This document shows, in pieces, positions 3,963 to 19,124 of a stretch of 22,475 bases of DNA. The stretch is from a virus. Below the pieces are notes generated by a model, which was not told the origin of the DNA, did not search any database, and saw only the letters and a list, made by a program, of their open reading frames with translations. The stretch's first letter is position 1; each line of letters opens with the position of its first letter. The position numbers were made by a program, and so were the translations under genes. The stretch covers positions 1 through 22,475 of the IMG/VR virus record IMGVR_UViG_3300046515_000115; one strand, 5' to 3'.

Positions 3963-5221
3963 ACGAGGTTCACCGTGATATTTCCGACCTGGAGGTTGGC
4001 CTGCTGAAATTGGCTCAGGACCACTTCATACGAGTACGCGCTGGGAAACGAAGGTGCAGGCGATCCGGCTGGCACGCAGGCGACCTGGCACGACTTCACG
4101 TAGAGGCCAGGGTACTGCCGCGCGACCGAACCGGACACTTCGAACGCCGAAACATCGGCGCTGACGACAAAACCAGGCTCACCCTGCTCCAAGCCTTGCG
4201 CGTACTCCAGGATGGACTGCTGGATAGCCGCTTGACCGGGTGATTGAGTCGCTGTCTGGTGCACGGTGATGTTGACGTACGCATCCAACATGATCGGAGT
4301 GACGTACAATATGTTGTACAGAAGGCCGGTCGTAGGATCAGGCGTCGGCGTACCGTTCGGAGAGTTGACCGGCGTGCCCATCCCTGCCGCGCCGAAGTCC
4401 CACGACATTCCGCTGTTGCGCGCGGCGTAGATGGCTGCTGCGACGGCGGAAGGGGCGGGCGTGCCGGCAACGCAGATCCACAGCGCGTTGGGCTTCGTGA
4501 ATGTGACGCCTTGAACGGTCGTTATCGTTCCGGTGTCGTTTTCGACAACCATCACGGACGTGACGTTGGGCACGTCTAGAAGGTTTGCCGCGACCGCTTG
4601 CGCCGATGCCGTGCCTTGGAGCGCGAGTTGCTGGTTGCGTTTGTTTTTCAGCTGAGGATCGTTCGCTTGCGTCGATCCTGGCGTGATTGTGCTGGTGACG
4701 GTACACGCGGCGCTGCCCCAGCCAAGCGTGCCATCCAAGATCGTCATCGCGCCGACCGGAAAGGGAATGAATCCGAACGCCTGCGATTGGAACGTGCCTG
4801 TGGTGGTGCCGCCAGACGGAATTGTCACCGCAGTAAGCAACGAGAAGATGTCGCCGTTGGGCGTTTGGATGCGCGAGCCAGCAGGGATAACAGTATCCGT
4901 ATTGCCGCCCAGCGCCACGCCTTGTACCACGGTTGATTGGTTCGTGCCGCGACCGATGCCGAGAAGCGCGCAGACTGCATCCAGAAACGTCCCGTACGCC
5001 AGGTTCGGGTTCTGCATGTTCGCGAGGTCAGCGTTGTTCTTCATAACGCTGGTGCGTGCAGTCGTTTCTGACGCGATCATCGTGCCCTGCGGCGTGCTCG
5101 CGTCCACATCGAGCGTAGCGCCGAACGCCGTCTGCCATTCGCCTTCAACGTCCGTCAGAAGATCGGTCGTGTCAATGGCGATGGTGCCGGTGTTTAGGAG
5201 GAAGGTATAGGCTGCGCTCAT
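3959..5221 (-). CDS. Baseplate J-like protein
   Basis: A 420-aa baseplate wedge component of the J/gp6-like family, forming the ring that opens when the sheath contracts. Family signs are the N-terminal DLLTDVEGEWQTAFG segment, a KNNADLANMQNPNLAYG helix region, FLDAVCALLGIGR near 80-95, and the VIPAGSRIQTPNGDIFSL strand pair that is characteristic of these proteins. QLKNKRNQQLAL near 190 and ANLLDVPNVTSVMVVEN follow. Length is typical of the family. It overlaps the upstream spike gene (ATGA at 5218-5221) and the downstream DUF2612-like gene by 4 nt each, so the three are one coupled unit. Confident from motifs and synteny. Confidence 0.88.
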   Translation of the reverse strand: MSAAYTFLLNTGTIAIDTTDLLTDVEGEWQTAFGATLDVDASTPQGTMIASETTARTSVMKNNADLANMQNPNLAYGTFLDAVCALLGIGRGTNQSTVVQGVALGGNTDTVIPAGSRIQTPNGDIFSLLTAVTIPSGGTTTGTFQSQAFGFIPFPVGAMTILDGTLGWGSAACTVTSTITPGSTQANDPQLKNKRNQQLALQGTASAQAVAANLLDVPNVTSVMVVENDTGTITTVQGVTFTKPNALWICVAGTPAPSAVAAAIYAARNSGMSWDFGAAGMGTPVNSPNGTPTPDPTTGLLYNILYVTPIMLDAYVNITVHQTATQSPGQAAIQQSILEYAQGLEQGEPGFVVSADVSAFEVSGSVARQYPGLYVKSCQVACVPAGSPAPSFPSAYSYEVVLSQFQQANLQVGNITVNLV

Positions 5222-5991
5222 GAAATCATATTCCCGCTAGTACGTGAGCCAGCACCAGAACTGATGTGGCCGTGGGTGGCGACGATGATGCCGTTGATTG
5301 TCGTGTTTGCCGGAAGAGTCACGCTGCTGGAGCCGCTGCCGCTTGCGTTGAAGCCGCCGTTGACGGTCGTCGCGCCGGTGATCGTCGCAGTCTGCTGGAC
5401 TGTTAAGTTGCCCTTAACGACTACGTTGGCAGAAAACGTCGCTGTGGGCGTCGTAACGTTTACTGCAGTCGGCGCGGTGATGTTTATCGTGCCTTCGTTG
5501 ATCGCGATTCGCGTGGTGCCGTCCGTCGATTGCAGCACCATCGCATTGGCGTCCGCGCCGTTTATGGTGTAGTTGCGAAAGACGTCAGGGATGAACCACG
5601 AGTCAGAAAACTTGTGCTTGCGCAGCGTATTAGGGCGTGCGGCAGACAGGCTCTGCAGGAACAGCGAGAGGTCACGATCAGCCGCGAGAATCCAGCCAAG
5701 GTCGCCTTGCTTGAGCGGAAAGCTGATGTGGAATCCGCCGCCGCCAAGTGACATGACAGGAACGTCAGCGATGCGATTGCGCATGCGCGTGTTGTCGCTG
5801 ACGTCGAGAATCATGATCATCGGTTGGACTGTCGCGATGTTCTTTGTGCGGTCGAATCCGATCACCGATGCCGGGATTAGCTTGTCCGTATTCAGACCGT
5901 GCATCTCGAATAGGGCCATCATCGCAGCAGGCAGGCTTTTGGCCTCTCCTGGCGCTTGATTGACGATGGGCTTACTCTGCAGGTCAGACAT
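5218..5991 (-). CDS. Central tail spike (Gp138 N-terminal/gpV-like membrane-piercing protein)
   Basis: The trimeric spike at the tail tip that punctures the outer membrane. Residues 38-115 match the Gp138 N-terminal OB-fold: IPASVIGFDRTKNIATVQPM, VPVMSLGGGGFHISFPLKQGD, and ADRDLSLFL. A threonine/valine/asparagine-rich region (165-235), fit for a beta-helix, leads to a C-terminal HGH at 240-242, followed by Gly/Ser-rich residues. In gpV-type spikes an apical HxH holds an iron ion, so this is probably the needle apex. The gene follows a 50-nt gap that carries a promoter-like leader with GGAG 6 nt before the ATG. It overlaps the J-like gene downstream. The 257-aa length is usual for such spikes. 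Confidence 0.85.
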   Translation of the reverse strand: MSDLQSKPIVNQAPGEAKSLPAAMMALFEMHGLNTDKLIPASVIGFDRTKNIATVQPMIMILDVSDNTRMRNRIADVPVMSLGGGGFHISFPLKQGDLGWILAADRDLSLFLQSLSAARPNTLRKHKFSDSWFIPDVFRNYTINGADANAMVLQSTDGTTRIAINEGTINITAPTAVNVTTPTATFSANVVVKGNLTVQQTATITGATTVNGGFNASGSGSSSVTLPANTTINGIIVATHGHISSGAGSRTSGNMIS

Positions 5992-5997
5992 TAAGGA

Positions 5998-6041
5998 CTC
6001 CGATTGAACGGCCTATTATAAGCGGTGAAGGCCACTGCCAA
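5998..6041 (-). promoter_or_regulatory. Promoter-like leader before the spike gene
   Basis: On the minus strand TTGGCA (6041-6036), 15 nt, a perfect TATAAT (6020-6015), 13 nt, GGAG (6001-5998), and 6 nt to the ATG at 5991. The same elements at the same distances stand before the tube gene. A 15-nt spacer is short for sigma-70, so activity is not certain. Confidence 0.45.
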
Positions 6042-6053
6042 CCGTCACCGCTT
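6020..6053 (-). repeat. Hairpin overlapping the stop of the 169-aa gene
   Basis: Perfect 9-bp inverted repeat AAGCGGTGA/TCACCGCTT (arms 6020-6028 and 6045-6053) with a 16-nt loop. It includes the TGA stop of the upstream gene and ends against the TATAAT of the leader. No U-tract follows, so it is not a classical terminator. Confidence 0.5.
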
Positions 6054-6554
6054 CTTCGTCGCGGCCTCATTCGCGAGTGCTTCGTTCACGCCTTTCGCAA
6101 CCATCACATCAAACATTTTGAATGCGTCTTCCAGCGAGTAGTACTCTTCAAGTTCGCGCAGTGATGCCACGTCTTCCTGGATGAGTTGCGCCGCGAGAGG
6201 GTCGATGTGCGACGACTCCTTGGGCTTGCCGCCTGCCGTGAATCGAGACGGAATCTTCACGCCCTTCCAGCCACCGGTGAAGCCAAAAGAGAACTCGTGC
6301 ACCATCTTTAGGACGCCTTGCAAGACGAGGCGAGGCGCGAGGATGAATGCCTTATCGATCACCAGTCGGTTTATCGCATCTCGCGAATCGAGCATGACCC
6401 ACTGGCCATCTTCCATCGCGTAGGTTAGGCGAAGGCTTTCAATTGGGCTGATGGTCGCAGCCTGGTCCATGATTTCAAGTGCTGGCATGGCCGCGAATTG
6501 CGTCGTTTTGTAATCGACGCCGAACATACTGAAGTGCTTGGTTTTCGTGGCCAT
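6045..6554 (-). CDS. Phage tail protein of unknown function, tail-chaperone-like
   Basis: A 169-aa soluble protein with no clear family. The pattern near the N-terminus (FAAMPALEIMDQAATI, then IESLRLTYAMEDGQWVMLD) and the helical, charged end (LRELEEYYSLEDAFKMFDVM) resemble phage tail assembly chaperones, which bind the tape measure protein during tail building. It has no signal peptide or membrane segment. It lies between the hub and spike genes rather than directly before the tape measure, unusual for a chaperone. The ATG is 1 nt after the hub stop region, so it is probably translated by coupling. It may be related to the 138-aa protein before the tape measure. The function is an inference from pattern only. 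Confidence 0.6.
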   Translation of the reverse strand: MATKTKHFSMFGVDYKTTQFAAMPALEIMDQAATISPIESLRLTYAMEDGQWVMLDSRDAINRLVIDKAFILAPRLVLQGVLKMVHEFSFGFTGGWKGVKIPSRFTAGGKPKESSHIDPLAAQLIQEDVASLRELEEYYSLEDAFKMFDVMVAKGVNEALANEAATKKR

Positions 6555-6555
6555 A

Positions 6556-7434
6556 TTAAGCGGGCGGATTGGCGAACGCGTGCACGTAAAAAGGCACTTC
6601 GCGACTCGTCAGGTCATAATCGATAGAAGACATCACGAACGTCTTGTTGAGACTCGGATTCATCTTGGACTGAAGTGCTACGGCACCCGCCAGCGTCAGC
6701 TGTGGATCGAACAGCGCCTGGAATTCAACGCCCCACTCGGTCCACAGCGGCGTACCGATGAATTCGGACACCGTAACGATCTGCGCCGTGGAGAGAATCT
6801 TGTTGATGTCCTTGACGTACAGAATGTTGTTATCGATGAATGCCGCGACGTTCGGACGGTAGGCGTTTTGGATATCAATGAGCAACGCGCCTGCTATATG
6901 CGTGGAAGCAGACGGATTGTTGATCTGAACGTTGTCATACGAAGTCTCGCACTGGACGCTGCTGACGCCCATCTGGGTCGCTGCCCATTGAACGTACTGC
7001 TTGAAGGTCGGCGTGGTCGGTGCCGGTTCCGTGATCCACTCTGTCCGGTTCAACTGCTGGGAGTAGCACTCGATTCGGACGCCTATATTTGGCGGTGCCG
7101 ATACCGGCGTGGCTGTAACGACCTGGCCTGCGAACACTGTGGTTGAAGTGTTCTGGTTGGCCGTCGAATAACCTGCCTGAACGTTCACGTTGACGTAGTT
7201 CGACAGCGCGCCGGGCTGGCCCGTTTCGATCTGGCGCTTGTTCCAGGCGGTGAATTGCGAAAGCAGAGCCTCGCGCAGATTCTGGCTCAGGTTGAAGACG
7301 TCAATAGAGCACGTGTTCTGGACGGCGAGCGCATCCTTGTGGATACGGATGCGCAAGTCCAGCGACTCGTCCAAAACGACATCGCCAGATTGCATCGAAA
7401 GCGTTACTTTGAGGTTGCGAGTACCCAGCGGCAT
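6556..7434 (-). CDS. Baseplate hub protein (gp27/gp44-like), putative
   Basis: A 292-aa protein in the usual place of the hub, directly after the tape measure and before the spike. The hub joins the tube end to the spike. Visible signs: an N-terminal beta-hairpin region (LRIRIHKDALAVQNTCSIDV), then NLSQNLREALLSQF, a motif common in hub proteins, followed by NVQAGYSTA and TVFAGQVVTATP. The TFKQYVQWAATQMGV helix and ILYVKDINKIL strand come later, and the end (SSIDYDLTSREVPFYVHAF) has the typical final beta strands. The ATG overlaps the tape measure stop as TAATG. The hub call is well supported by position and motif style but not by a catalytic or diagnostic residue. Confidence 0.7.
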   Translation of the reverse strand: MPLGTRNLKVTLSMQSGDVVLDESLDLRIRIHKDALAVQNTCSIDVFNLSQNLREALLSQFTAWNKRQIETGQPGALSNYVNVNVQAGYSTANQNTSTTVFAGQVVTATPVSAPPNIGVRIECYSQQLNRTEWITEPAPTTPTFKQYVQWAATQMGVSSVQCETSYDNVQINNPSASTHIAGALLIDIQNAYRPNVAAFIDNNILYVKDINKILSTAQIVTVSEFIGTPLWTEWGVEFQALFDPQLTLAGAVALQSKMNPSLNKTFVMSSIDYDLTSREVPFYVHAFANPPA

Positions 7435-9578
7435 TATCCCTTGACTCCAGTCGAGAAGTTGTACAAGAGATCGTTCATACTCTTCGTCAACTGCTTGTTG
7501 ACTTCCTCGCCAACCGCCTTGGGATCGGTCGCGCCGTTCACATTGATGATAATCGGACGTTCTCCGACCGTACGCGATTGCTCACCCGGCTGCTGGCGGC
7601 CAACGACTTCCGCTTGATACTGCCGCATGAGGTCCAGGCCGCGCGATTGGTCGCGCAACTCGGTCTTCAGCTTGGCGTAGTTCTGTGCCGGCATACCGCC
7701 AACGGAAAGCTGGCGCTGCAGGTCGTAGATGTGGTTGCTGATACCTGCCTGGATCTGGCGCGTGGCCCAGCCTGCGTCGCCTTGCGTAACGCCACCGCGC
7801 TGGATTTGATCGAGCGGCACGCCCAGGTACGTCGCCACCGATTGCTGCACCTGCCGGACATTCATCTTCGCGCGACTCTCGCCAATACCGCCAGAGCCGC
7901 CACCGTACGCCGCGCTGATCTTGCTGACGTAGTTCGGATCGCTATTGCCGTTGTAGCCACGTAGCGCGGCTTCTACGTTGCCGTGATTGCGCTGCAGGAA
8001 CTCCGCGTAAATCTTTGCGCCTGTGTCGATGTTCGTTTGCGGGTCGCGGTAATCCTTCAGCCCATACGCCTTCTGATTGCCGCGCGTAATCTGCATTAGG
8101 CCACCCGCACCGGTAGGGCTGACTGCGAGAGGGTCGCCCTTAGACTCCACGCGCATGATCGCGGACAGCATCTGCGGATCCAAGTTGTACTTCTTAGCGG
8201 ACTGGCTGATGAAGTTCGCATAGTTGTTTCCCTGCCAGTTATTCGACCCACCGCCTGACAGAGAGCCATTAGAACTGGATCCTGGAAGGCCAGCGGCCTT
8301 GCCTATCTCGCCAGCCCACGCGGCCCAGGCCTGTTGGATATTGATGGCCGAAGAGAACGACTGGACGGCACCGGCGAACATATTCACTGCCAGGTTCATT
8401 TGATTGGCAGTTTGGAGTCCTTGCTTGTTCGTTGCGTCCATCTTATCAACGGCAGCATCGCGCTTGTCCTGGTCCTTCTTCGCGTCAGCCTTCGCCTTGG
8501 CTTCGTCCGCTGCCTTCTTCTTGGCATCACTGCTTGGGCCAAGGATCATGTCCATGAACTTGCCGGCAACTCCCCACTTGTTATCGTCGGTCTTGCCTGC
8601 GAAGTAGTCGCCGTTGATCATGCTGAATAGGCTCTTCGCGCTTCCCAGGCCACCGGCGGAAAAGTTGCTGGCGGTGCCGATCTTATCGCCGGTTTTCGTC
8701 AGCGTCTTTGGGAGAGCGTCCGCGAGCGCCTGCATAACCTTCACCAGCTGCGACATCAGCGGCAGAAGCGGCTCTGCAAGTTCGTTCGATACTTCGGTGA
8801 ACTTCTCTTTCAGCTTCTGAAGCTGATCGTTGAAGTTGGACAGGCCTTTTTCTGCGTTTTCACGCTTGGTTATTTCATCACCGGTCATCTCGGTGATCTT
8901 ACCGATTGACGGGCCAAGCTTTTGCAGCGTCAGAAGCCAATCCTGATTCATTCCGGTCGCCTTGGCAATGCCTTGCACGTCGCCGCGCGACTTGCCTTGA
9001 AGGCCAGATGCCAGCTGCTGCATCTCTTCATTCAGGCCGGTCGGCGTCTGGCCTCGCTCACCGACATTGACTCCGAGCATGCGCATCAGCCGCGCCTCGC
9101 GTCCTAGACGGGAAGGGTCGGCGTAGGCGCTATTGGCCATGCCAGCGAATGTCTTAACGCCTTCCGCTGCTGCGTCGCGGTCCAAGTATCCGCCTGAACT
9201 CTTAACGAACTTGCGCTGGTACTCTTCCATGCGGATGGACGAGACGCCAAGCTGCATCCCTTCGGAGCGTTGGCGGTTGTACTGCTCCCGAAGGTCCATG
9301 ACCATCTTGACTCCGAGAGCAAGCGCGCCAAGCGCGGCTGTGGCCACTGCGAATTCCGCGCCCATCGCTTTGACGGCACTCGACACCGCGTTGACACCTG
9401 GGACAAGCCGTCCAAGTTCGCCAGCTGCATCACCAGCGAACTTCTTCACGTCGCTCGCGCCTTTTGCAGCCTTCGTGCCGACACCACTCATCTTGTCCTG
9501 CAGCTTCTCCAGCCGCGCGACAGAATCCTTTAGGTCAACTTGATACTGCAGAACGAACTTGTCCAGATCGTCAGACAT
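7434..9578 (-). CDS. Tape measure protein with embedded lytic transglycosylase (SLT) domain
   Basis: Sets tail length and is ejected ahead of the DNA; the SLT domain cuts peptidoglycan during entry. The 714 residues show a helical N-terminus (DLKDSVARLEKLQDKMSGV), an apolar stretch at about 76-95 (FAVATAALGALALGVKMVM), and long helical segments. A highly charged Lys/Ala/Asp coiled-coil-like part lies at 351-382. The SLT domain is at about 452-560, with LSAIMRVESKGDP (candidate catalytic E478), GAGGLMQIT at 491-499, and ALRGYNG near 538-544. At about 0.15 nm per residue the length suggests a tail near 100 nm, a rough inference. AAGGAG precedes the ATG, which overlaps the upstream stop as TAATG. 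It is by far the longest gene here, as expected. Confidence 0.93.
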   Translation of the reverse strand: MSDDLDKFVLQYQVDLKDSVARLEKLQDKMSGVGTKAAKGASDVKKFAGDAAGELGRLVPGVNAVSSAVKAMGAEFAVATAALGALALGVKMVMDLREQYNRQRSEGMQLGVSSIRMEEYQRKFVKSSGGYLDRDAAAEGVKTFAGMANSAYADPSRLGREARLMRMLGVNVGERGQTPTGLNEEMQQLASGLQGKSRGDVQGIAKATGMNQDWLLTLQKLGPSIGKITEMTGDEITKRENAEKGLSNFNDQLQKLKEKFTEVSNELAEPLLPLMSQLVKVMQALADALPKTLTKTGDKIGTASNFSAGGLGSAKSLFSMINGDYFAGKTDDNKWGVAGKFMDMILGPSSDAKKKAADEAKAKADAKKDQDKRDAAVDKMDATNKQGLQTANQMNLAVNMFAGAVQSFSSAINIQQAWAAWAGEIGKAAGLPGSSSNGSLSGGGSNNWQGNNYANFISQSAKKYNLDPQMLSAIMRVESKGDPLAVSPTGAGGLMQITRGNQKAYGLKDYRDPQTNIDTGAKIYAEFLQRNHGNVEAALRGYNGNSDPNYVSKISAAYGGGSGGIGESRAKMNVRQVQQSVATYLGVPLDQIQRGGVTQGDAGWATRQIQAGISNHIYDLQRQLSVGGMPAQNYAKLKTELRDQSRGLDLMRQYQAEVVGRQQPGEQSRTVGERPIIINVNGATDPKAVGEEVNKQLTKSMNDLLYNFSTGVKG

Positions 9579-9991
9579 TACTGCTCCTTATTCACCATCT
9601 GGAAAGCGGGTCCAAGCAGCTGCGAGCACTCGGCAACGAACGCCGTGGCCATTTCAGAGCCTGCCTTGGCCCAGTAGTGCGGCTGATCAGCGTGGGTCTT
9701 GGGATCGATACCGTTTTGGCGCAGCGTCTCTTCGAACACCGTCTGGATGTTTTGCCACGACATGAGATGGTTGTCGATGACCGCAGGCACGTTCAGCGGC
9801 AACTCGCGATCATCGATGATAACTTTGGAATACGAAAGGACTTCGAGCGTATAGCCGCGCCGGAACTCTTTGTCAGAACTTGCCGCGAATTCGATGAAGC
9901 GCTGCTGAATATCCCAGCCGTCAAGCGCAGGGAAGTGGCCGATAGAGATGGATTTTACTAGGCCGGTCGGCGTCGTGATTTCAATGTTCAT
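9578..9991 (-). CDS. Tail assembly chaperone-like protein upstream of the tape measure
   Basis: A protein of 138 aa from ATG 9991 (147 aa if the in-frame TTG at 10021 is used). It lies immediately before the tape measure gene, the usual seat of tail assembly chaperones. The N-terminal part (IEITTPTGLVKSISIGHFPA, then LDGWDIQQRFIEF) and the LPLNVPAVIDNHLMSWQNIQ region resemble chaperone-type folds and share style with the 169-aa protein at 6045-6554. The start is unclear: no ribosome site stands before the ATG at 9991, while GGAAGG is 11 nt before the TTG. A hairpin covers the interval. The gene ends with TAATG overlap on the tape measure. No slippery-site frameshift partner was noticed. Function is inferred from place and pattern. 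Confidence 0.65.
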   Translation of the reverse strand: MNIEITTPTGLVKSISIGHFPALDGWDIQQRFIEFAASSDKEFRRGYTLEVLSYSKVIIDDRELPLNVPAVIDNHLMSWQNIQTVFEETLRQNGIDPKTHADQPHYWAKAGSEMATAFVAECSQLLGPAFQMVNKEQ

Positions 9992-10000
9992 GTGAGGGTC

Positions 10001-10038
10001 GGAAGGCGGTCCAGGTTGCAATATTATGACCGCCTTCC
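10001..10038 (-). repeat. Perfect 11-bp inverted repeat before the chaperone-like gene
   Basis: Arms GGAAGGCGGTC (10001-10011) and GACCGCCTTCC (10028-10038) with a 16-nt AT-rich loop. It ends 9 nt before the ATG at 9991 and places the GGAAGG ribosome-site-like sequence inside the stem and the TTG at 10021 in the loop. No U-tract follows on either strand. It may control translation or mark an RNA processing site. Confidence 0.6.
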
Positions 10039-10074
10039 GTGTACTACTGACGCGCAGACTCGCGCCTCTGCTGA

Positions 10075-10236
10075 TTACATTTGTACCGGCGGCAAACCAG
10101 GCAACGCGTTCCCAGCCTGCAGCCAGCGTATGAAGTCTTGGAAGTCGGTGTTGTTGAAGTCAAGCGGGATATACGCACCATCCGAACGCAGGACGTTGCA
10201 TGCTGGAAATGCAATGATAAGCGTGTAAGTGAACAT
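10075..10236 (-). CDS. Small fibre-associated protein (53 aa), putative tail fibre assembly partner
   Basis: A 53-codon gene 14 nt after the tail fibre stop, with TAGGAG 6 nt before its ATG. The product begins MFTYTLIIAFPACNVLRSDG and continues AYIPLDFNNTDFQDFIRWLQ, then AGNALPGLPP. The I-P-x-D-x-x-N-x-D-x-x-x-[FY]-x-x-W-x-x-x-GN pattern is widespread in small phage proteins encoded beside tail fibres, where a role in fibre assembly or as a fibre-linked accessory has been suggested. There is no catalytic motif. The tight position after the fibre and the strong ribosome site make it very likely real. The precise role is unknown. Confidence 0.8.
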   Translation of the reverse strand: MFTYTLIIAFPACNVLRSDGAYIPLDFNNTDFQDFIRWLQAGNALPGLPPVQM

Positions 10237-10250
10237 ATAGCACTCCTAAG

Positions 10251-11999
10251 TTAAAGTTCAACTGAATTCTGAAGAGTCGCCGTCACCGATCCAACGGTTG
10301 TCTGAGCAGTGTACGTTATTGCAACGCCTGCTGCAGAAGATGCTTGAAGCGAGTTGAATGTTGCAGCAGAGGCCGACCCGCTATAAACCGCATTAACAAC
10401 AGTCGAACTCGGTATGCCGCGCATCGTTCTTGGGAACGTTATGGTTGTGGATGCGATGGTGCCTGCGGACGATAGAAAGGCATCGACTCGGTATGAATTG
10501 AAACTGAAGTAGCGTTGGCAAAGCGCAACCTCCGTTTCTATCGGGCGATGCTTGAACTGGGTTGAGATTGACCCGCCTTCGAGTTTAAGTTCAGTCATCG
10601 CAATGGTCGCGCCGACTGTCGCCGACCATTGCACCGTTCCGGTGGTTGCGATGAAGTTTCCTGCCTGCCACGCGGCGCTCGCTGTACCGCTGAATGTTCC
10701 GCTGTTCTGCGCTCCGATCCACACCACCAAACCGGTCGTGTTATTGCACGGTATGGTTGCGCCAGCAGGAATTGCTGGAACGGATATCGTAAATAGCTGC
10801 GGCGTGTTAGCAGCGGCGACTGTGATGGTTGTAAGGTATGTGAATGCGCTTGCAGCGTCGATCAAAGCGACAGCGTAAGTGCCGGCAATACTGGCTTGAA
10901 AGATGAAGCTGATCGCAACAGGCTGACCGACCAAATCATATACATCATAACCTTCGATACGATAGTTAAATCCACTCCAAAAATTAGTGCCGGTTATGCT
11001 GGTGGCAGCTGCGGTCGCCGTCTGAAGCACCGCAGGCTTAACGATTCCACCGAATGTGATGGTTGAAGCGGATTGCGTGACCGTACCGCCAGCCGCGCTG
11101 TTTGATACCCGGAAACGGTCAGGCCCACCGTATCCATTCACGTTGTTGGTGGCGACGATGGATACGCGTTGCTGCACGCGGCAGCCACCGTTAATGATCC
11201 GGTTATCGGATAGCAACGAAAACGGATTCACGTTGCCGGTATCATACGGCGTGTTGCCGTTGAATACCGGGCGAACGCTCATGGTCTGTTGCGCGGCCCA
11301 CGTATTCGCGCCGTTCAGAAGAGGAACGGTTGCGCCGCTCGTTCCGGTATTCTGCGTTGCGGCAGTCCCAAGGCCAAGGTTCGATCTGGCAGTTGGGACG
11401 CTGTTGACATCCGACAGGTTGTTGGCCTTGAGCAGAACGCCTGCGGTCCCTGACGTTGCCTGAGTCGTTCCGTCTGCGAACGTAAGGACGCCTCCAGCGG
11501 ACAATGTCAAGCCACCGACCGTGGCAACTCCCGTAACTCCGAGCGCGCCGCCAACGTTGGCGTTTTTGGACACACCTAAGCCACCGGCAACTGTAGCCGC
11601 GCCGGTAGTCGCGCTCGTGGATTGGGTCGTCGCCGTAACAACCGCGCTGCCAGTCGTTGTTACTCCAGCAACTCCGACGTTGCCGCCAACGTTGACGTTC
11701 TTTACGACGCCGACACCGCCAGCGACCGTAACGGCACCGGTTGTAGTGCTGGTCGAATCGGTCGCGCCGGACACGACGACCGCGCCGCCAACTTGAACGT
11801 CGCCGCCTACGCCTACGCCACCAGCGACCGTTACAGCGCCGGTGGTGGGCGAAGTCGTCGGCGTCGTGCCTGAGACGTTGAAGCTGGTCAGACCGGTGAC
11901 CGAGCCGCCTGTGATGTTCGCTGCAGCGTTGTCGGTCTTCGCATCGAGAGAAGCGTTGAGTTCAGCTGCGGTGAGAATCTGCCCTGGTGTATAGCTCAT
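10251..11999 (-). CDS. Tail fibre protein with repetitive N-terminal shaft
   Basis: A 582-aa probable receptor-binding fibre. Residues 1-30 (MSYTPGQILTAAELNASLDA) are a typical attachment start. Residues 49-160 hold three related TTGAVTVAGGVGV units, a likely trimeric beta-structured shaft. NLSDVNSVPTARSNLGLGTA (194-213) is a common fibre motif. From about 268, NRIINGGCRVQQR and GYGGPDRFRVSN match a beta-sandwich domain frequent in phage receptor-binding proteins. LKLEGGS then KHRPIETEVALCQRYFSF is also a common fibre element close to the C-terminal tip. The ATG overlaps the upstream stop (ATGA at 11996-11999) and has no good ribosome site, so it probably depends on coupling. The 3' half looks more AT-rich by eye than its neighbours, as expected for an exchanged host-range region. 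It lies inside the baseplate cluster, ahead of the tape measure. Confidence 0.85.
   Translation of the reverse strand: MSYTPGQILTAAELNASLDAKTDNAAANITGGSVTGLTSFNVSGTTPTTSPTTGAVTVAGGVGVGGDVQVGGAVVVSGATDSTSTTTGAVTVAGGVGVVKNVNVGGNVGVAGVTTTGSAVVTATTQSTSATTGAATVAGGLGVSKNANVGGALGVTGVATVGGLTLSAGGVLTFADGTTQATSGTAGVLLKANNLSDVNSVPTARSNLGLGTAATQNTGTSGATVPLLNGANTWAAQQTMSVRPVFNGNTPYDTGNVNPFSLLSDNRIINGGCRVQQRVSIVATNNVNGYGGPDRFRVSNSAAGGTVTQSASTITFGGIVKPAVLQTATAAATSITGTNFWSGFNYRIEGYDVYDLVGQPVAISFIFQASIAGTYAVALIDAASAFTYLTTITVAAANTPQLFTISVPAIPAGATIPCNNTTGLVVWIGAQNSGTFSGTASAAWQAGNFIATTGTVQWSATVGATIAMTELKLEGGSISTQFKHRPIETEVALCQRYFSFNSYRVDAFLSSAGTIASTTITFPRTMRGIPSSTVVNAVYSGSASAATFNSLQASSAAGVAITYTAQTTVGSVTATLQNSVEL
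11520..11855 (-). repeat. Three degenerate repeats coding for the fibre shaft
   Basis: Residues 49-160 of the fibre repeat T-S/T-x-T-T-G-A-[VA]-T-V-A-G-G-[VL]-G-V followed by a [DN]-x-[NQ]-V-G-G element. Copies start near residues 50, 84 and 129, spaced 34 and 45 residues. The second and third are separated by an extra GSAVVTATTQ stretch. At DNA level the copies have diverged. Confidence 0.75.
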
Positions 12000-12631
12000 A
12001 GTTTGCTTGAATCAAGAGTGAATAGGCCACCAATCGAATCGATAAGCGCACCGGGCGTTGGTATGGACGGAAAATTAACCGCAGATGAAACGGCCTTAGT
12101 CAACGTCGCCAGCGGCACGACGCTAGGCGGCGACTGGATGCTTACTCCGTACACCGAAGCATCGGCGCTTTGTGATGGCGCAAATCCAGAATTGGCAGGC
12201 GGCTGCGCTTGCTCAAACGTCATGATGACGCGAGTGGCGGACAGCATCTCACCAGACTGCTCCAGATCGACTGACGTCAATACTAAGAACGCCGTAATAA
12301 TCGACTTGGTGTTGATCGATATTGTAACGGTTTCATCCAGGAAGGTCGCGATAATGTCCTGGACCGTCGAGATGTTATCACTCAGCGCCGTAACGCGAAG
12401 GCGCGAAGGCTGGATGATCTTTACGGCCTCCAGATCAGCCGCGAGAACAGACTGGTACGTGGCGGAATCGGTCGTGCTGCTATTCGCCATCGGCGCATCG
12501 GTGTTGCTGCTGCCGCTTTGGATCTCGACATCGACAATGCCGAGATCAGCCCAAACGACTTCGTTGGTCACCTCATTCGTCGCGATGAATGACGGCTTGC
12601 TGAGGATGGTCGAGAGGATCGAATTGGCCAT
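11996..12631 (-). CDS. Baseplate-region protein, paralogue of its upstream neighbour (211 aa)
   Basis: No firm family. It starts MANSILSTILSKPSF, sharing LSTILSK with the 187-aa neighbour. Its middle (PSRLRVTALSDNISTVQDII, then TVTISINTKSIITAFLVLTS, then SATRVIMTFEQ) aligns in pattern with that protein. Such a core resembles the N-terminal domain of Dit-like distal tail proteins and small baseplate subunits. The last 70 residues are Pro/Ser-rich and not shared. It is soluble, without a signal peptide. The ATG is at 12631, just after the upstream stop (12633), with little ribosome-site match, so coupling is likely. Its last bases overlap the fibre start. A role at the tube-baseplate joint or as fibre adaptor is inferred. 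Confidence 0.7.
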   Translation of the reverse strand: MANSILSTILSKPSFIATNEVTNEVVWADLGIVDVEIQSGSSNTDAPMANSSTTDSATYQSVLAADLEAVKIIQPSRLRVTALSDNISTVQDIIATFLDETVTISINTKSIITAFLVLTSVDLEQSGEMLSATRVIMTFEQAQPPANSGFAPSQSADASVYGVSIQSPPSVVPLATLTKAVSSAVNFPSIPTPGALIDSIGGLFTLDSSKL

Positions 12632-12632
12632 G

Positions 12633-13196
12633 TCACAAACCCGTATTCGAGATCACGCGCTGCGCCAGTTGCTGCGCAGTCAACGCGGCGCTATTAACCG
12701 CGCTCTGTGCCGACTGGAGAGCCGTGTTTACGGTCTGGATGCCCTTGTCCAGAATGGAAGAGTCTGCCGGTTGCTCTGTTACGGGGCTAGCCGCGCCAGA
12801 TTGCCTCAGCAGCTGCTTCAAAACGATCCGCACTGGGTTCGCAGAGATAACGTCAGGGGTTTGCTTGATCGCGTTCTCTTCAGCCATAGTCTGGTCCATA
12901 ACGATGCCCTTGGACGTGACTTTATAGACCGAATCTCGATCCAGGATCAGCGCGTTGACAAGCGCGAGGTCATTCAGAGTCTCGCAGAATGCGTCAATCT
13001 CCACGTAAGCCGGTACGATGATTCGAGCGTCAACGATGCTGTTGCCGTCTTCGCGCATGTGGCGAAGGGCGCGCGCGCGAAACTTGAAGCTGACCTTGAC
13101 CACCTTCAAGTTGGCTGCAACGTCGATGCCGGTCTGGCTGTTGACGATGGTCAACGCTGCCTTGGACAGTATCGTGGAAAGGACTGTGGCCGGCAT
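12633..13196 (-). CDS. Baseplate-region protein, first of a paralogous pair (187 aa), Dit-like pattern
   Basis: No firm family. The N-terminus MPATVLSTILSKAALTIVNS shares LSTILSK with the next gene. The core runs from KVVKVSFKFRAR through ARIIVPAYVEIDAFCETLND, VYKVTSKGIVMDQTM and PVRIVLKQLL. It recalls Dit-like or baseplate proteins that make a beta-sandwich ring. The C-terminal 40 residues form a helical Ala/Gln/Ser-rich tail (NTALQSAQSAVNSAALTAQQ). The start abuts the upstream stop exactly (TAAATG), so translation depends on re-initiation. It stands between the second tube-like protein and its own paralogue, consistent with a tube-end or baseplate adaptor. Function is inferred only from position and pattern. 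Confidence 0.7.
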   Translation of the reverse strand: MPATVLSTILSKAALTIVNSQTGIDVAANLKVVKVSFKFRARALRHMREDGNSIVDARIIVPAYVEIDAFCETLNDLALVNALILDRDSVYKVTSKGIVMDQTMAEENAIKQTPDVISANPVRIVLKQLLRQSGAASPVTEQPADSSILDKGIQTVNTALQSAQSAVNSAALTAQQLAQRVISNTGL

Positions 13197-13694
13197 TTAT
13201 AGCAACGCCAGGCCAGCACGCGCGACCGTTGCCGCGAGTTCGGTAAAACTCTGCGCGCCAGCGAACGTTCCGAAGACGAAGTGGTAGGCATTGCCCTTCT
13301 TCCTCCCATTGGACGAGATGCTGTCTGCGAGCGCGCCGCTGAGGATGCCACCACCAGAGAGGATCACGCGCCCACCGTCCGGATACGTAATGATCATCGT
13401 GGTCGTGTCGGGCAGCGGCAGGAGGTGCGGCGACGACTTGCGCGCCTGCATGAGAATCTTCAGGTTGATATCGTCGTCGGTGTTCGGGATGATGCCGACC
13501 GACAGAAGGACAGGAGAAGTCTTGTCGAAGATGAAGATGCTGCCGTCATACAGCCTCTCATATCCTGACACTTCTACTTCTTCGACGGTCAACGGGTCTT
13601 CGTCGTCAGCGAATGAGGTGAGTTGGAACCCCACAGGAAAGCTGCCTGTGGATATGACGGTGATACCGATTCCAAACGCGCTGACGTCGATCAT
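13197..13694 (-). CDS. Second tube-like protein (165 aa), paralogue of the tail tube protein
   Basis: Probably a tube-fold baseplate protein, such as a tube initiator, or a second tube subunit. It aligns along its length with the 153-aa tube protein at 14596-15057. Both have an N-terminal D-[IV]-S-x-F-G, then FP-x-G, FADD-x-DPL, IP-x-x-x-DDINL, a TYP-x-G strand, and a final S-x-GR-x-K followed by F-x-FG. Identity is clearly partial, so this is an old duplication or a family with two roles. AAGGAC precedes the ATG, 9 nt after the stop of the 62-aa gene. The main tube subunit is expected right after the sheath, so this copy, placed in the baseplate group, is the more likely initiator. That assignment is inferred. 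Confidence 0.7.
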   Translation of the reverse strand: MIDVSAFGIGITVISTGSFPVGFQLTSFADDEDPLTVEEVEVSGYERLYDGSIFIFDKTSPVLLSVGIIPNTDDDINLKILMQARKSSPHLLPLPDTTTMIITYPDGGRVILSGGGILSGALADSISSNGRKKGNAYHFVFGTFAGAQSFTELAATVARAGLALL

Positions 13695-13703
13695 ACGTAG
13701 TCC

Positions 13704-13892
13704 TTACTTTGCCTCTTCGACAGGCGCGGCGTCTTGCGTCGTGGTCGTCGGATGCTGAATGACTTCAGGCGCAGGTCCGGTTGCGGTAATCGGGTGCGAC
13801 AGTGCGCCGTTCACAGCGGCTTCTTCACCAACGACAGGCGCAGCGCTCGCGCGAATCGTGATTACGCCGTGGCCGGTTTGGATAGCGGGCAT
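13704..13892 (-). CDS. Small hypothetical protein (62 aa)
   Basis: Unrecognised. It begins MPAIQTGHGVITIRASAAPV and is rich in Ala, Pro, Thr and Glu, with a mostly disordered C-terminal half (PAPEVIQHPTTTTQDAAPVE). There is no membrane segment or catalytic motif. A strong ribosome site, AAGGAG, stands 7 nt before the ATG and overlaps the stop of the gp25-like gene, which supports a real gene. It sits between the gp25-like gene and the second tube-like gene, so a small structural or assembly role in the baseplate is possible. Confidence 0.65.
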   Translation of the reverse strand: MPAIQTGHGVITIRASAAPVVGEEAAVNGALSHPITATGPAPEVIQHPTTTTQDAAPVEEAK

Positions 13893-13901
13893 GGAGACTC
13901 C

Positions 13902-14264
13902 TTAAGGGGTTGGTGTCGAACCGACTGAGACCGGGCCATAGATCGTATGGACATCGGCCTCGTAATCGAAGTTTTCGCCGTCGATGGTGATGTCCAGAGA
14001 CTTGATGCTTAGGACATCAGGACATTCCAGGATGTTTGTCGAGAGCGATTGCCGCGCGGCGTCGTAGTCCGGTTGCGGCGTGAAGATCGTGCCGAAGTAG
14101 TCAACGCCGTCGCCAGTGTTGTACTGGTTTTCGCCAAGGCGCATGAGCACCTTTTGCGTAATATTTTGGGCGCATGCGGGCGCACCGCTGATGAAGGCCA
14201 GGTTGCGACCGTCCACCAGAAAGAGGTCGTTATTTTCGTTGCACTGAAGAGTGAGTGTGGCCAT
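13902..14264 (-). CDS. Baseplate wedge protein, gp25-like (putative)
   Basis: A 120-aa protein matching the style of the W/gp25/Mu gp46 group, a small wedge protein that contacts sheath and baseplate. The N-terminus is strand-rich (TLQCNENNDLFLVDGRNLAF). NITQKVLMRLGENQYNTGDG followed by VDYFGTIF is the most diagnostic part: a helix, then the LGE and G-x-x-YF-G pattern. SLSTNILECPDVLSIKSLDI then gives the closing strand pair. Length is typical. Its ATG overlaps the stop of the plug gene (TGATG at 14262-14266). The call is supported by family resemblance and by its place next to the plug gene. Confidence 0.75.
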   Translation of the reverse strand: MATLTLQCNENNDLFLVDGRNLAFISGAPACAQNITQKVLMRLGENQYNTGDGVDYFGTIFTPQPDYDAARQSLSTNILECPDVLSIKSLDITIDGENFDYEADVHTIYGPVSVGSTPTP

Positions 14265-14590
14265 CAGATGACTCCTTCATTCAATGCCGCAACGAAAATA
14301 GCAAGCTCATCCTGCTCCAGATAATACAGGTTGCAGGATGCGCCGAACTCGGTCCAATCGGCGTCCGAATCAAACGCGAAGTTTCCCAGGTTCGGCGCAA
14401 ACATGTAGGAGTACTGCATAAGCGGAATCCCACCAAAGCACCGAATCCCATCCAAGATTTTCACGCCGTTCTTGGAGATATCCGCGCACATGAAGTTGAT
14501 GGTCTGATAGACGTGAATCGTCCACAGAACACCATCCGCATTAAACGACACGGATTGATTCGGCACCTGCGACAGCGGGATTGCCAGCAT
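14264..14590 (-). CDS. Baseplate plug-like protein (Pam3 gp18-like), putative
   Basis: A 108-aa protein resembling the baseplate plug that closes the tube end in simple myoviruses. It starts MLAIPLSQVPNQSVSFNADG, then VLWTIHVYQTINFMCADISK and NGVKILDGIRCFGG, then PLMQYSYMFAPNLGNFAF. The order 'IPL, gln-rich strand, D/N-G, Y/N, DI, G..IL.G' is that of this small beta-rich family. I chose the ATG at 14590, 5 nt after the tube stop, rather than the longer frame from 14725, whose extra N-terminus overlaps the tube gene and looks like antiparallel-frame noise (Arg/Trp-rich). The gene ends in a TGATG overlap with the gp25-like gene. Function from resemblance and position. Confidence 0.7.
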   Translation of the reverse strand: MLAIPLSQVPNQSVSFNADGVLWTIHVYQTINFMCADISKNGVKILDGIRCFGGIPLMQYSYMFAPNLGNFAFDSDADWTEFGASCNLYYLEQDELAIFVAALNEGVI

Positions 14591-14595
14591 AGCAA

Positions 14596-15057
14596 TTAGC
14601 TCGAAGGCGCGACGTTCTGACGTTGCACTTGGCCGAAGCGGAACACAAAACGCTTCGACTTCGCGCGGCCATTGGCCGAACCCGATTGCACGACCGGGCC
14701 AGTGCTCAACTTGCCTTCGGTGCACGTCACCTTCATGCCGTTGGGGTACGTGAACACGATCTGGCAGACGTCACGCGCGGACGACTTGCCCTTGGCCACG
14801 CGGTTCGCGTCCACGAGTGCCGTCAGGTTGATGTCGTCTTGCGACTGCGGAATCACGTTCATCGTGATCTCGATCAGCTGCGGACGCGTCCAGGTGATCA
14901 CGTCGCCGTTCGGACCCATCGCCATGTCGGCAATGTCCAGGTCCGGTGAGTCGAGCGGGTCTGCGTCGTCCGCGAAGGCGGTGACCGTCGTGCCGTTCGG
15001 AAAGGTGTTGGACGCGACGACTTGCGCGCTCAACCCAAAAATGCTGATATCTTCCAT
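14596..15057 (-). CDS. Tail tube protein
   Basis: The 153-aa product of the gene right after the sheath, the standard seat of the tube subunit that forms the inner DNA channel. It is beta-rich and shows the signature stretches MEDISIFGLSAQVV, FPNGTTVTAFADDADPL, NVIPQSQDDINLTALVDANR and VFTYPNGMKVTCTEGKL, ending with ANGRAKSKRFVFRFGQ. These are repeated in the 165-aa paralogue. Ribosome site GGAG is 6 nt before the ATG. Upstream lies an 81-nt gap with a promoter-like leader, suiting a highly expressed gene. The length is typical of tube proteins. The tube call rests on synteny and on length; the family is not named by any sequence-only diagnostic I can quote. Confidence 0.8.
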   Translation of the reverse strand: MEDISIFGLSAQVVASNTFPNGTTVTAFADDADPLDSPDLDIADMAMGPNGDVITWTRPQLIEITMNVIPQSQDDINLTALVDANRVAKGKSSARDVCQIVFTYPNGMKVTCTEGKLSTGPVVQSGSANGRAKSKRFVFRFGQVQRQNVAPSS

Positions 15058-15063
15058 TTACAA

Positions 15064-15107
15064 CTCCGTGAAGTGGTCCGATTATACCGGCGCGGCTGAT
15101 GTCCCAA
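15064..15107 (-). promoter_or_regulatory. Promoter-like leader before the tail tube gene
   Basis: On the minus strand TTGGGA (15107-15102), 15 nt, perfect TATAAT (15086-15081), 13 nt, GGAG (15067-15064), then 6 nt to the ATG at 15057. All four spacings equal those before the spike gene. It stands in one of the few non-coding gaps, just after the sheath stop. The 15-nt spacer is short for sigma-70. Confidence 0.5.
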
Positions 15108-15130
15108 ACACTCAGGAGACGCCAGCCGCG
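15091..15130 (-). repeat. Hairpin between sheath and tube genes
   Basis: Perfect 8-bp inverted repeat CGCGGCTG (15091-15098) and CAGCCGCG (15123-15130) with a 24-nt loop containing the TTGGGA element. It begins 8 nt after the sheath stop. No U-tract follows. It may protect the sheath mRNA end or act together with the leader. Confidence 0.4.
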
Positions 15131-15138
15131 AGCGCCGT

Positions 15139-16659
15139 TTAGATCAGTACGTCGCTGCCGTTAACAGCGCGGATTGCATCGCTCTTCGCGTACACGAACT
15201 GGTAGTTGGCCACCCATTCTTCCAGGTCGCTGTTCGGGTTCGTTTGCGATGTGAACGTGATGCTCAGCCAGTAGCCAAGCGTCTGCACCTGACGCCACGC
15301 GTTCGCATCACCGGTGATCTGCGTGATGAAGAGTTGCTGCACTGCGCTCAACGTCTTGCCAGCGGAGATCACGCCGTTGGTTTGCGCCAGCGTGATCGTC
15401 GGTTGCATCACGCCCAGAAGCATGGCCGCGCCAATCGGGTCTGCCGGCACTTCCGGAACGTTCAGGAAGAGGCTCATGAAGTTCGCGGCGAACGCCGACT
15501 TCAGCCACATCTCGTTGGCGAACGTGTTCATGTCCACCGCAGCCGTCGAGCCACCACACAGAACGCCGCGCTGGTAGAACGCGAGTTGCTGACCGGCGCT
15601 TTGCGTCACGCCGATGTAGTTGCCGCGCGAGGCGTCCACGGTATCCGCCGTGGTATCGTCGCTCACCGTGATGTTGCGGTTTGCGAACTGATAGAACATG
15701 TAGTTCTGCGACGCTGCTGCCGCACTGTAATTCGTTGCGGCCAGAATCTCGCAAGGCGACTGCTCGATGAAGTCGTTGGCCTGCGTCGTGGACAGGATGT
15801 TGATCGCCACGCCGCTGAAGCCCTTGATCAGTGCAAAGAGCGTCTGCAGATTCGCGAGCGGCGTTGCCAGCGAATAGATGAACTTGTTGTTCTGGCTGTC
15901 GGTCCACTGCGAGATCGCGGCAATCTGCGAATTGGTGAGAGGCGTGGAAGGCGTGCAGTAGACAAACGAACCGAAGTTGTCGCTGATTCCGGCCGATTTG
16001 GACACTGCTACGTCAGCGGTATCAGCCGCCTGCCCAGCAACGAGGATCGTGCCGCCTGTCGTCCAACCAAGAAGCGCGGACACGTCCGTGGTCAGGCCGG
16101 TCGGAGTCGCGGACAGCGTACCAGCGCCAGGCGAGGAACCCGTCAGAACGAACTGGTTGGTGTTGGTGTTGAACGACACCGTGCAGGTCGCCAGCTGCGA
16201 GTCCGACACAGCGCGGAGAGCCGTCTGCAGGATCGCCGCGACTTGCGTCAACGTGGTCGCGGCGGAGAAGTCCAGCCCTGTGACCGGCAGCGCGGTCGCA
16301 CCGTCGTTGATCGTCAGCGTACCGGCTGAGATGGCAACGAACGCGGCCAGCACCTTCGCGATGGTATCGCCAACGATCATCGGAGCAATCGCCGCCGATA
16401 CCCAACGCGCAAACGAGATGCGCGCAGGCGACGTGATCGACTTGCTGATGAACGAGAAGTAGGCGAGCGCGCGAAAGTACTCTTCCGACTGGGTGCCGAA
16501 GTACGCGCCGACTGCTGTGGCGTTTTGGAACTCGGCCACGAGACCAGGCGGCAGCAAGTTGTTCTGGGTGATCGCGCGCATGATCAACTGGCGCTGTGCT
16601 ACCGCTGCGCCAGCGCCCACGCCGGATACGATTTTGATATAACGGGACTGGCTAATCAC
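15139..16659 (-). CDS. Contractile tail sheath protein (DUF3383-like)
   Basis: A 506-aa sheath subunit, whose contraction drives the tube through the cell envelope. It matches the DUF3383 pattern: N-terminal SRYIKIVSGVGAG, QRQLIMRAI with LLPPGLVAEFQNA, then a VGAYFGTQSEEYFRALAYFS stretch, followed by SKSITSPARISFARWV. Later come IAAISQWTDSQNNKFIYSLA, the SPCEILAATNY-SAA region with NYMFYQF, and a C-terminal VQTLGYWLSITFTSQTN segment. The start is GTG at 16659, with AAGGAG 8 nt upstream. No ATG sits near. It is followed by the tube gene, as in other myoviruses. Confident from pattern, length and synteny. Confidence 0.9.
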   Translation of the reverse strand: MISQSRYIKIVSGVGAGAAVAQRQLIMRAITQNNLLPPGLVAEFQNATAVGAYFGTQSEEYFRALAYFSFISKSITSPARISFARWVSAAIAPMIVGDTIAKVLAAFVAISAGTLTINDGATALPVTGLDFSAATTLTQVAAILQTALRAVSDSQLATCTVSFNTNTNQFVLTGSSPGAGTLSATPTGLTTDVSALLGWTTGGTILVAGQAADTADVAVSKSAGISDNFGSFVYCTPSTPLTNSQIAAISQWTDSQNNKFIYSLATPLANLQTLFALIKGFSGVAINILSTTQANDFIEQSPCEILAATNYSAAAASQNYMFYQFANRNITVSDDTTADTVDASRGNYIGVTQSAGQQLAFYQRGVLCGGSTAAVDMNTFANEMWLKSAFAANFMSLFLNVPEVPADPIGAAMLLGVMQPTITLAQTNGVISAGKTLSAVQQLFITQITGDANAWRQVQTLGYWLSITFTSQTNPNSDLEEWVANYQFVYAKSDAIRAVNGSDVLI

Positions 16660-18606: not shown

Positions 18607-19065
18607 TTATTCCTGCGAGAGTTCTTTCGACGGAACCTTGACCTTGATGCGCTGGCCAATGGTATCCTTCGTCAGCTGCTTGAACGGGTCTTCCTGGTTC
18701 ATTCCGGACGCCACCTTGGCTACGGCTTTGTGGTCGCTGGAGATGTCCTTGCCCAAGACTTCCAAGAAGCCGCCTTCCAGGTGCTTCTTGAACAGCCAGT
18801 GATCCTTGACGCGGTCGTAGTCCTCGTCACTCAGCGGCGTAACGATGCCTTTCGCCGTCCACAGCGGACTGCCGTTGAGGTCGTCTGCGCGCACGCCAAA
18901 GCCGCTCTTTCCGCTCGGACGGTCCGCGCCGCCACGGATGAGAACCGGGTTGGGATCGGGCACCGGCAGCGGCACGGCGTTGCGACTCGTGTTGTTGTCG
19001 CCGCGCAGAGTGTAGGTGCGATACGAGACGGCGTTTGCCATCGTGGAGACTACGTAAACAGTCAT
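18607..19065 (-). CDS. Hypothetical head protein downstream of the capsid gene (152 aa)
   Basis: Family not recognised. It begins MTVYVVSTMANAVSYRTYTL, then has a proline-rich VPLPVPDPNPVLIRGGADRP loop and FGVRADDLNG. A GIVTPLSDEDYDRVKDHWLF helix follows, and HLEGGFLEVL. The C-terminal half is charged and helical (LTKDTIGQRIKVKVPSKELS). No signal peptide or membrane segment. It lies between the capsid and connector genes, so a capsid-binding or assembly role is likely. Its ATG is preceded by AAGGAC, and its transcript must either read through the terminator at 19125-19155 or start afresh after it. No convincing promoter is seen in the gap. Confidence 0.7.
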   Translation of the reverse strand: MTVYVVSTMANAVSYRTYTLRGDNNTSRNAVPLPVPDPNPVLIRGGADRPSGKSGFGVRADDLNGSPLWTAKGIVTPLSDEDYDRVKDHWLFKKHLEGGFLEVLGKDISSDHKAVAKVASGMNQEDPFKQLTKDTIGQRIKVKVPSKELSQE

Positions 19066-19124
19066 GGTATTCAGTCCTTGTAATTACGTGGCGGTCAGCC
19101 CCTGAAGCCTATGCCATCGATAGT

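Follow-up and report, generated by a model that had tools for sequence, protein, structure and literature searches.

Internal late promoters before tail genes are known from phages P2 and Mu, among them one before the P2 spike gene V, and they need phage activators (Ogr and C) that have defined upstream sites. The likeness to the locus described here lies in the placement of (here putative) internal promoters before tail genes; the dependence on activators is a property of P2 and Mu. In Listeria phage CKA15, mapped start and stop sites split the contractile-tail structural module, and an intrinsic terminator follows the tail tube gene (PMC12282133). That phage is unrelated to the one studied here, and the resemblance is one of layout. 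Also among the closest described systems are the PB1-like phages (Pbunavirus; JG024 and LBL3) with their predicted sigma70 promoters, which belong to the same phage group and share the same polymerase dependence, since PB1 phages were reported to lack an RNA polymerase, to depend on the host, and to have predicted sigma70 promoters (PMC3008698). A promoter was predicted before ORF22 of JG024 (PMC3008698) and, in the LBL3 record, in the long gap that precedes the protease gene, both of which fall in the region of the protease site described below. Neither the JG024 table (PMC3008698) nor the LBL3 record contains a predicted promoter before the tube or spike gene; LBL3 has TATACT before its spike gene and no -10 hexamer before its tube gene.

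The stretch of DNA analyzed in full (the window) is a virus record of 22,475 bases, the minus strand of which carries structural genes from the prohead protease through the endolysin. It represents a 22 kb fragment, and motif counts for this phage itself cover that fragment. The nearest counterparts of its tube and spike proteins occur in phages of the BcepF1, Maja, MyoSmar, Mansfield, XcP1, and PB1 groups, with identities of approximately 45 to 58%. We take these groups to form the family Lindbergviridae, in which the Pbunavirus Banzai has been placed (PMC12390725). Two contigs belong to this phage or to a very near relative of it: L011, with 98% identity over 10.5 kb, and L006, with 95%. The gene names given in a first-pass annotation were correct, as the proteins match the tail tubes of E217 and Pa193 and the baseplate spike gp43 of E217. 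The genes and the elements of the two leaders are as follows.

5218..5991, minus strand: baseplate spike gene, matching E217 gp43 (baseplate spike) and Pa193 gp44
5991-5989, minus strand: ATG, spike start
6001-5998, minus strand: GGAG, Shine-Dalgarno sequence of the spike gene
6020-6015, minus strand: TATAAT, -10-like hexamer of the spike leader
6041-6036, minus strand: TTGGCA, proposed -35 element of the spike leader, 15-nt spacer
6020..6053, minus strand: spike-leader hairpin, arms AAGCGGTGA (6053-6045) and TCACCGCTT (6028-6020)
14596..15057, minus strand: tail tube protein gene, matching E217 gp32 and Pa193 gp33 (tail tube); phrog_2420
15057-15055, minus strand: ATG, tube start
15067-15064, minus strand: GGAG, Shine-Dalgarno sequence of the tube gene
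15086-15081, minus strand: TATAAT, -10-like hexamer of the tube leader; the next base is C, as in most relatives
15107-15102, minus strand: TTGGGA, proposed -35 element of the tube leader, in the loop of the sheath-tube hairpin and not conserved in relatives
15091..15130, minus strand: sheath-tube hairpin, arms CGCGGCTG (15130-15123) and CAGCCGCG (15098-15091), ending 4 nt before TATAAT
15139..16659, minus strand: tail sheath gene; phrog_205

As had been read from the sequence, TTGGnA-N15-TATAAT-N13-GGAG-N6-ATG stands exactly at 15107..15055, ahead of the tube gene, and at 6041..5989, ahead of the spike gene, over 53 nt in each case, and there is a hairpin in each leader. The TTGGnA box lies inside the hairpin loop in both leaders. 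The spike-leader hairpin overlaps both the stop codon upstream and the initial T of TATAAT, and no consistent counterpart of it was seen in the spike leaders of relatives. Neither hairpin was listed as an intrinsic terminator in a terminator scan of the window, and no T run follows either of them. TATAAT had been called rare in this DNA; there are indeed only two copies in the window, but 1.55 are expected, so that the count is ordinary. It is the placement that is unusual, since a random TATAAT would fall wholly within a gap of the late strand, and on that strand, with a chance of approximately 1%.

The comparison of orthologue leaders covered 45 non-redundant loci; the group is deeply diverged, and the leaders are mostly unalignable. 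The test was confined to orthologue leaders, as crude ORF calls on the opposite strand hid some gaps in a whole-genome TATAAT census of eight relatives. (i) An exact TATAAT at positions -60 to -12 was present in 15 of 22 spike, 15 of 41 tube, and 9 of 26 protease leaders. Among the other structural genes with at least 15 leaders, the corresponding figures were 2 of 15 for g103 and 4 of 34 for g22 (12 to 13%), and 0 to 5% for the rest. (ii) When the best -10 score was compared with dinucleotide shuffles of the same leaders, Z values of 9.3 (spike), 9.0 (tube), and 7.0 (protease) were obtained, next to 4.1 for g103 and at most 2.5 for the remaining 18 genes, and a -10 plus a -35 element at allowed spacing gave 11.6 for spike and 9.7 for protease; because the promoter matrices are approximate E. 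coli frequencies and related phages were counted separately, these values rank genes against control genes and are not exact probabilities. (iii) After clustering at 70% protein identity, the site was present in 16 of 20 spike, 9 of 20 tube, and 18 of 22 protease clusters. (iv) The tube hexamers differ mainly at the third base (TATAAT, TACAAT, TAAAAT, and TAGAAT), as -10 boxes do; the spike leader of close relatives of the window reads TAAAAT, GATAAT, or TATACT. Since the enrichment holds gene by gene and across many diverged clusters, the -10-like site is best taken as a real, selected feature that is conserved in position and specific to a few leaders. The weak -10 enrichment in leaders of g103 (9578-10021 of the window) makes this specificity imperfect; in some relatives of the window, CATAAT stands just before that gene.

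Evidence on the -35 region differed between the leaders. Of 18 spike leaders from relatives, anchored on the -10 hexamer, 16 had T at -23 and 13 had T at -22; among 22 protease leaders anchored in this way, 19 had T at each of the two positions. This is the place of a sigma70 -35 element with a 17-nt spacer, and a TTnAC-like sequence occupies it in most spike and protease leaders of relatives, the sites of which thus look like an ordinary sigma70 layout. No consistent -35 element was seen in any of the tube lineages compared. The spacer of 15 nt in the window is short for sigma70, and a consensus scan that allowed 16 to 18 nt listed neither site. A sigma70 region-2 domain was not found in 12 relatives, in a search with a positive control. 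As a separate observation, several minus-strand sites outside the structural genes of one relative, G003 (L075-L078), share a different repeated promoter-like motif, TTTGAA...AAATGG..TATAAT.

Both window sites have the -10 hexamer of a sigma70-type promoter, an exact TATAAT that is conserved in place. We consider that the two TATAATs are probably -10 elements of internal promoters for the host sigma70-type polymerase within the long structural operon (probability approximately 0.68), and that a third site of the same kind precedes the prohead protease gene in this phage group. Transcription would start approximately 7 nt after each hexamer, and the resulting short leaders, with the Shine-Dalgarno sequence a few nucleotides inside, would make tube and spike mRNA independent of read-through. 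The sequences show that the -10-like sites and the hairpin are conserved, where they lie, and to which leaders they are specific; the polymerase that would use the sites, the start points, the timing and strength of transcription, and any boost to the expression of the two genes are inferred. The mechanism has a stronger case at spike than at tube; at spike, a host sigma70-type internal promoter is very probably at work. For the tube gene, the -10 hexamer lies beside the sheath-tube hairpin and there is no conserved -35 element, and a promoter here would therefore probably be weaker or helped by something else, a view that we hold with somewhat less assurance than the general one. A point against a promoter at tube is that 11 of the 20 tube clusters lack the -10 hexamer. 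The best reading is thus that spike (and protease) have ordinary sigma70-type internal promoters and that tube has either a weaker, hairpin-coupled promoter or an RNA-processing site.

The second of these options for tube rests on the sheath-tube hairpin. Where the gap between the two genes is at least 40 nt, 26 of 33 phages had a hairpin beyond shuffle expectation, and 25 of the stem arms were distinct; the position of the hairpin is conserved across relatives, and the stem sequence differs in nearly every phage. Its 3' arm ends 2 to 6 nt before TANAAT in 18 of 20 cases. Gaps of less than 40 nt (8 phages) had neither hairpin nor hexamer, and LBL3, XcP1, Pluto, L040, and L041 have kept the hairpin without TANAAT. 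In several phages, moreover, the folded tube leader pairs TAnAATC with GATCTAA at the sheath stop codon. The conserved unit may be RNA, namely a hairpin that closes the sheath message and is followed by an AU-rich cut site, UANAAUC, so that sheath and tube mRNAs would be separated and differently protected. The frequency of the hairpin, its fixed distance from the hexamer, its retention in phages without the hexamer, the pairing at the sheath stop, and the lack of a consistent -35 element in tube leaders all favor such processing. We nevertheless regard it as unlikely, as the fit of the hexamer to the -10 consensus (A2, A5, and T6 retained, position 3 variable) is closer than AU-rich cleavage would require, and the same hexamer occurs in spike and protease leaders that have no consistent hairpin. 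A tentative proposal, to which we give similarly little weight, is that the sheath-tube gap is a composite in which a hairpin conserved in shape and variable in sequence stands 2 to 6 nt before a -10-like TANAATC; it could be a promoter in which an inverted repeat replaces the -35 region, or a combined end protector and restart site that sets the sheath:tube ratio.

The first-pass annotation had gone further and proposed that both leaders belong to a phage-specific class of late promoters, TTGGnA-N15-TATAAT-N13-GGAG. Such promoters might be recognized with a phage factor. The exact fit of the two leaders speaks for such a class, as does a small protein with a sigma region-4-like helix-turn-helix in G001 (69144-69555) and G004 (10695-11040), but this protein was present in only 2 of 14 relatives. 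A scan for the full motif, up to the ATG, among 2.9 million viral contigs returned only L006 and the contig of L011, both of this phage species, which largely refutes the class. The relatives keep the -10 hexamer and not TTGGnA or the spacing: TTGGnA at 15 nt was absent from the relatives' leaders examined. In the same phage, the protease leader (contig L011) has CATAAT and lacks TTGGnA. Furthermore, a shared hexamer with 5 of 6 matches has a 9% chance of occurring anywhere in the upstream stretch, or 2% if only -35-like offsets are admitted, so that the TTGGnA match, which lies in hairpin loops, is unremarkable after the fact. Upstream of TATAAT, the two leaders have 9 of 36 bases in common, no more than chance would give (P = 0.60). 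A shared leader duplication, considered as another origin, is not indicated, because the leaders are unrelated outside the named blocks. The shared TTGGnA and equal spacing are therefore not a conserved class, their best reading is chance, and a phage-specific class is very improbable. Of the first-pass proposal, promoter-like sites within the operon ahead of tube and spike have held up, through a -10 hexamer conserved in place, but a common class with fixed geometry has not. That the hexamers themselves are two AT-rich words in AT-richer gaps is scarcely credible and is refuted for the -10 site by the gene-by-gene enrichment over shuffles of the same leaders (Z of approximately 9, many diverged clusters), in spite of the ordinary TATAAT count and the higher AT content of some of these leaders.

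Two further features of the window deserve mention. The first is a candidate pseudoknot in the leader of the gene that follows the major capsid gene.

19066-19119, minus strand: candidate pseudoknot, leader of gene 18607-19065, which encodes a protein of unknown function

This fold would join five loop bases of a hairpin to a five-base partner immediately 3' of the Shine-Dalgarno sequence. Every cell of the pseudoknot helix pairs in 24 aligned sequences, and sliding the partner lowers the pairing of the whole structure to 23 to 40%. Four of the five pairs change on both sides, with few independent changes, since two of the four loop/partner versions (UUCAG/CUGAA, UGUAG/CUACA, UGCAG/CUGCA, and UGUGC/GCACA) account for most sequences. 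Rfam gave no match at this leader, and pattern scans for the pseudoknot returned 9 and 23 viral stretches. The element is likely to act in translational control and is the more novel regulatory element of the window when compared with the promoter-like sites. The second feature lies at 10022-11999, where a 582-aa fibre-like gene and a 229-nt gap separate g104 from g103; close relatives have 2 to 8 kb inserted at the same place. In the annotation of Maja, the counterparts of g104 and g103 form a tape-measure chaperone pair linked through a frameshift, and because the inserted gene and gap separate the two, the frameshift product probably cannot be made where the insert is present.

Taken together, the -10-like sites provide a testable map of possible transcription restarts within the structural operon of phages of the PB1/BcepF1 group, and the conserved sheath-tube hairpin stands out as a possible control on the relative amounts of two abundant tail proteins.
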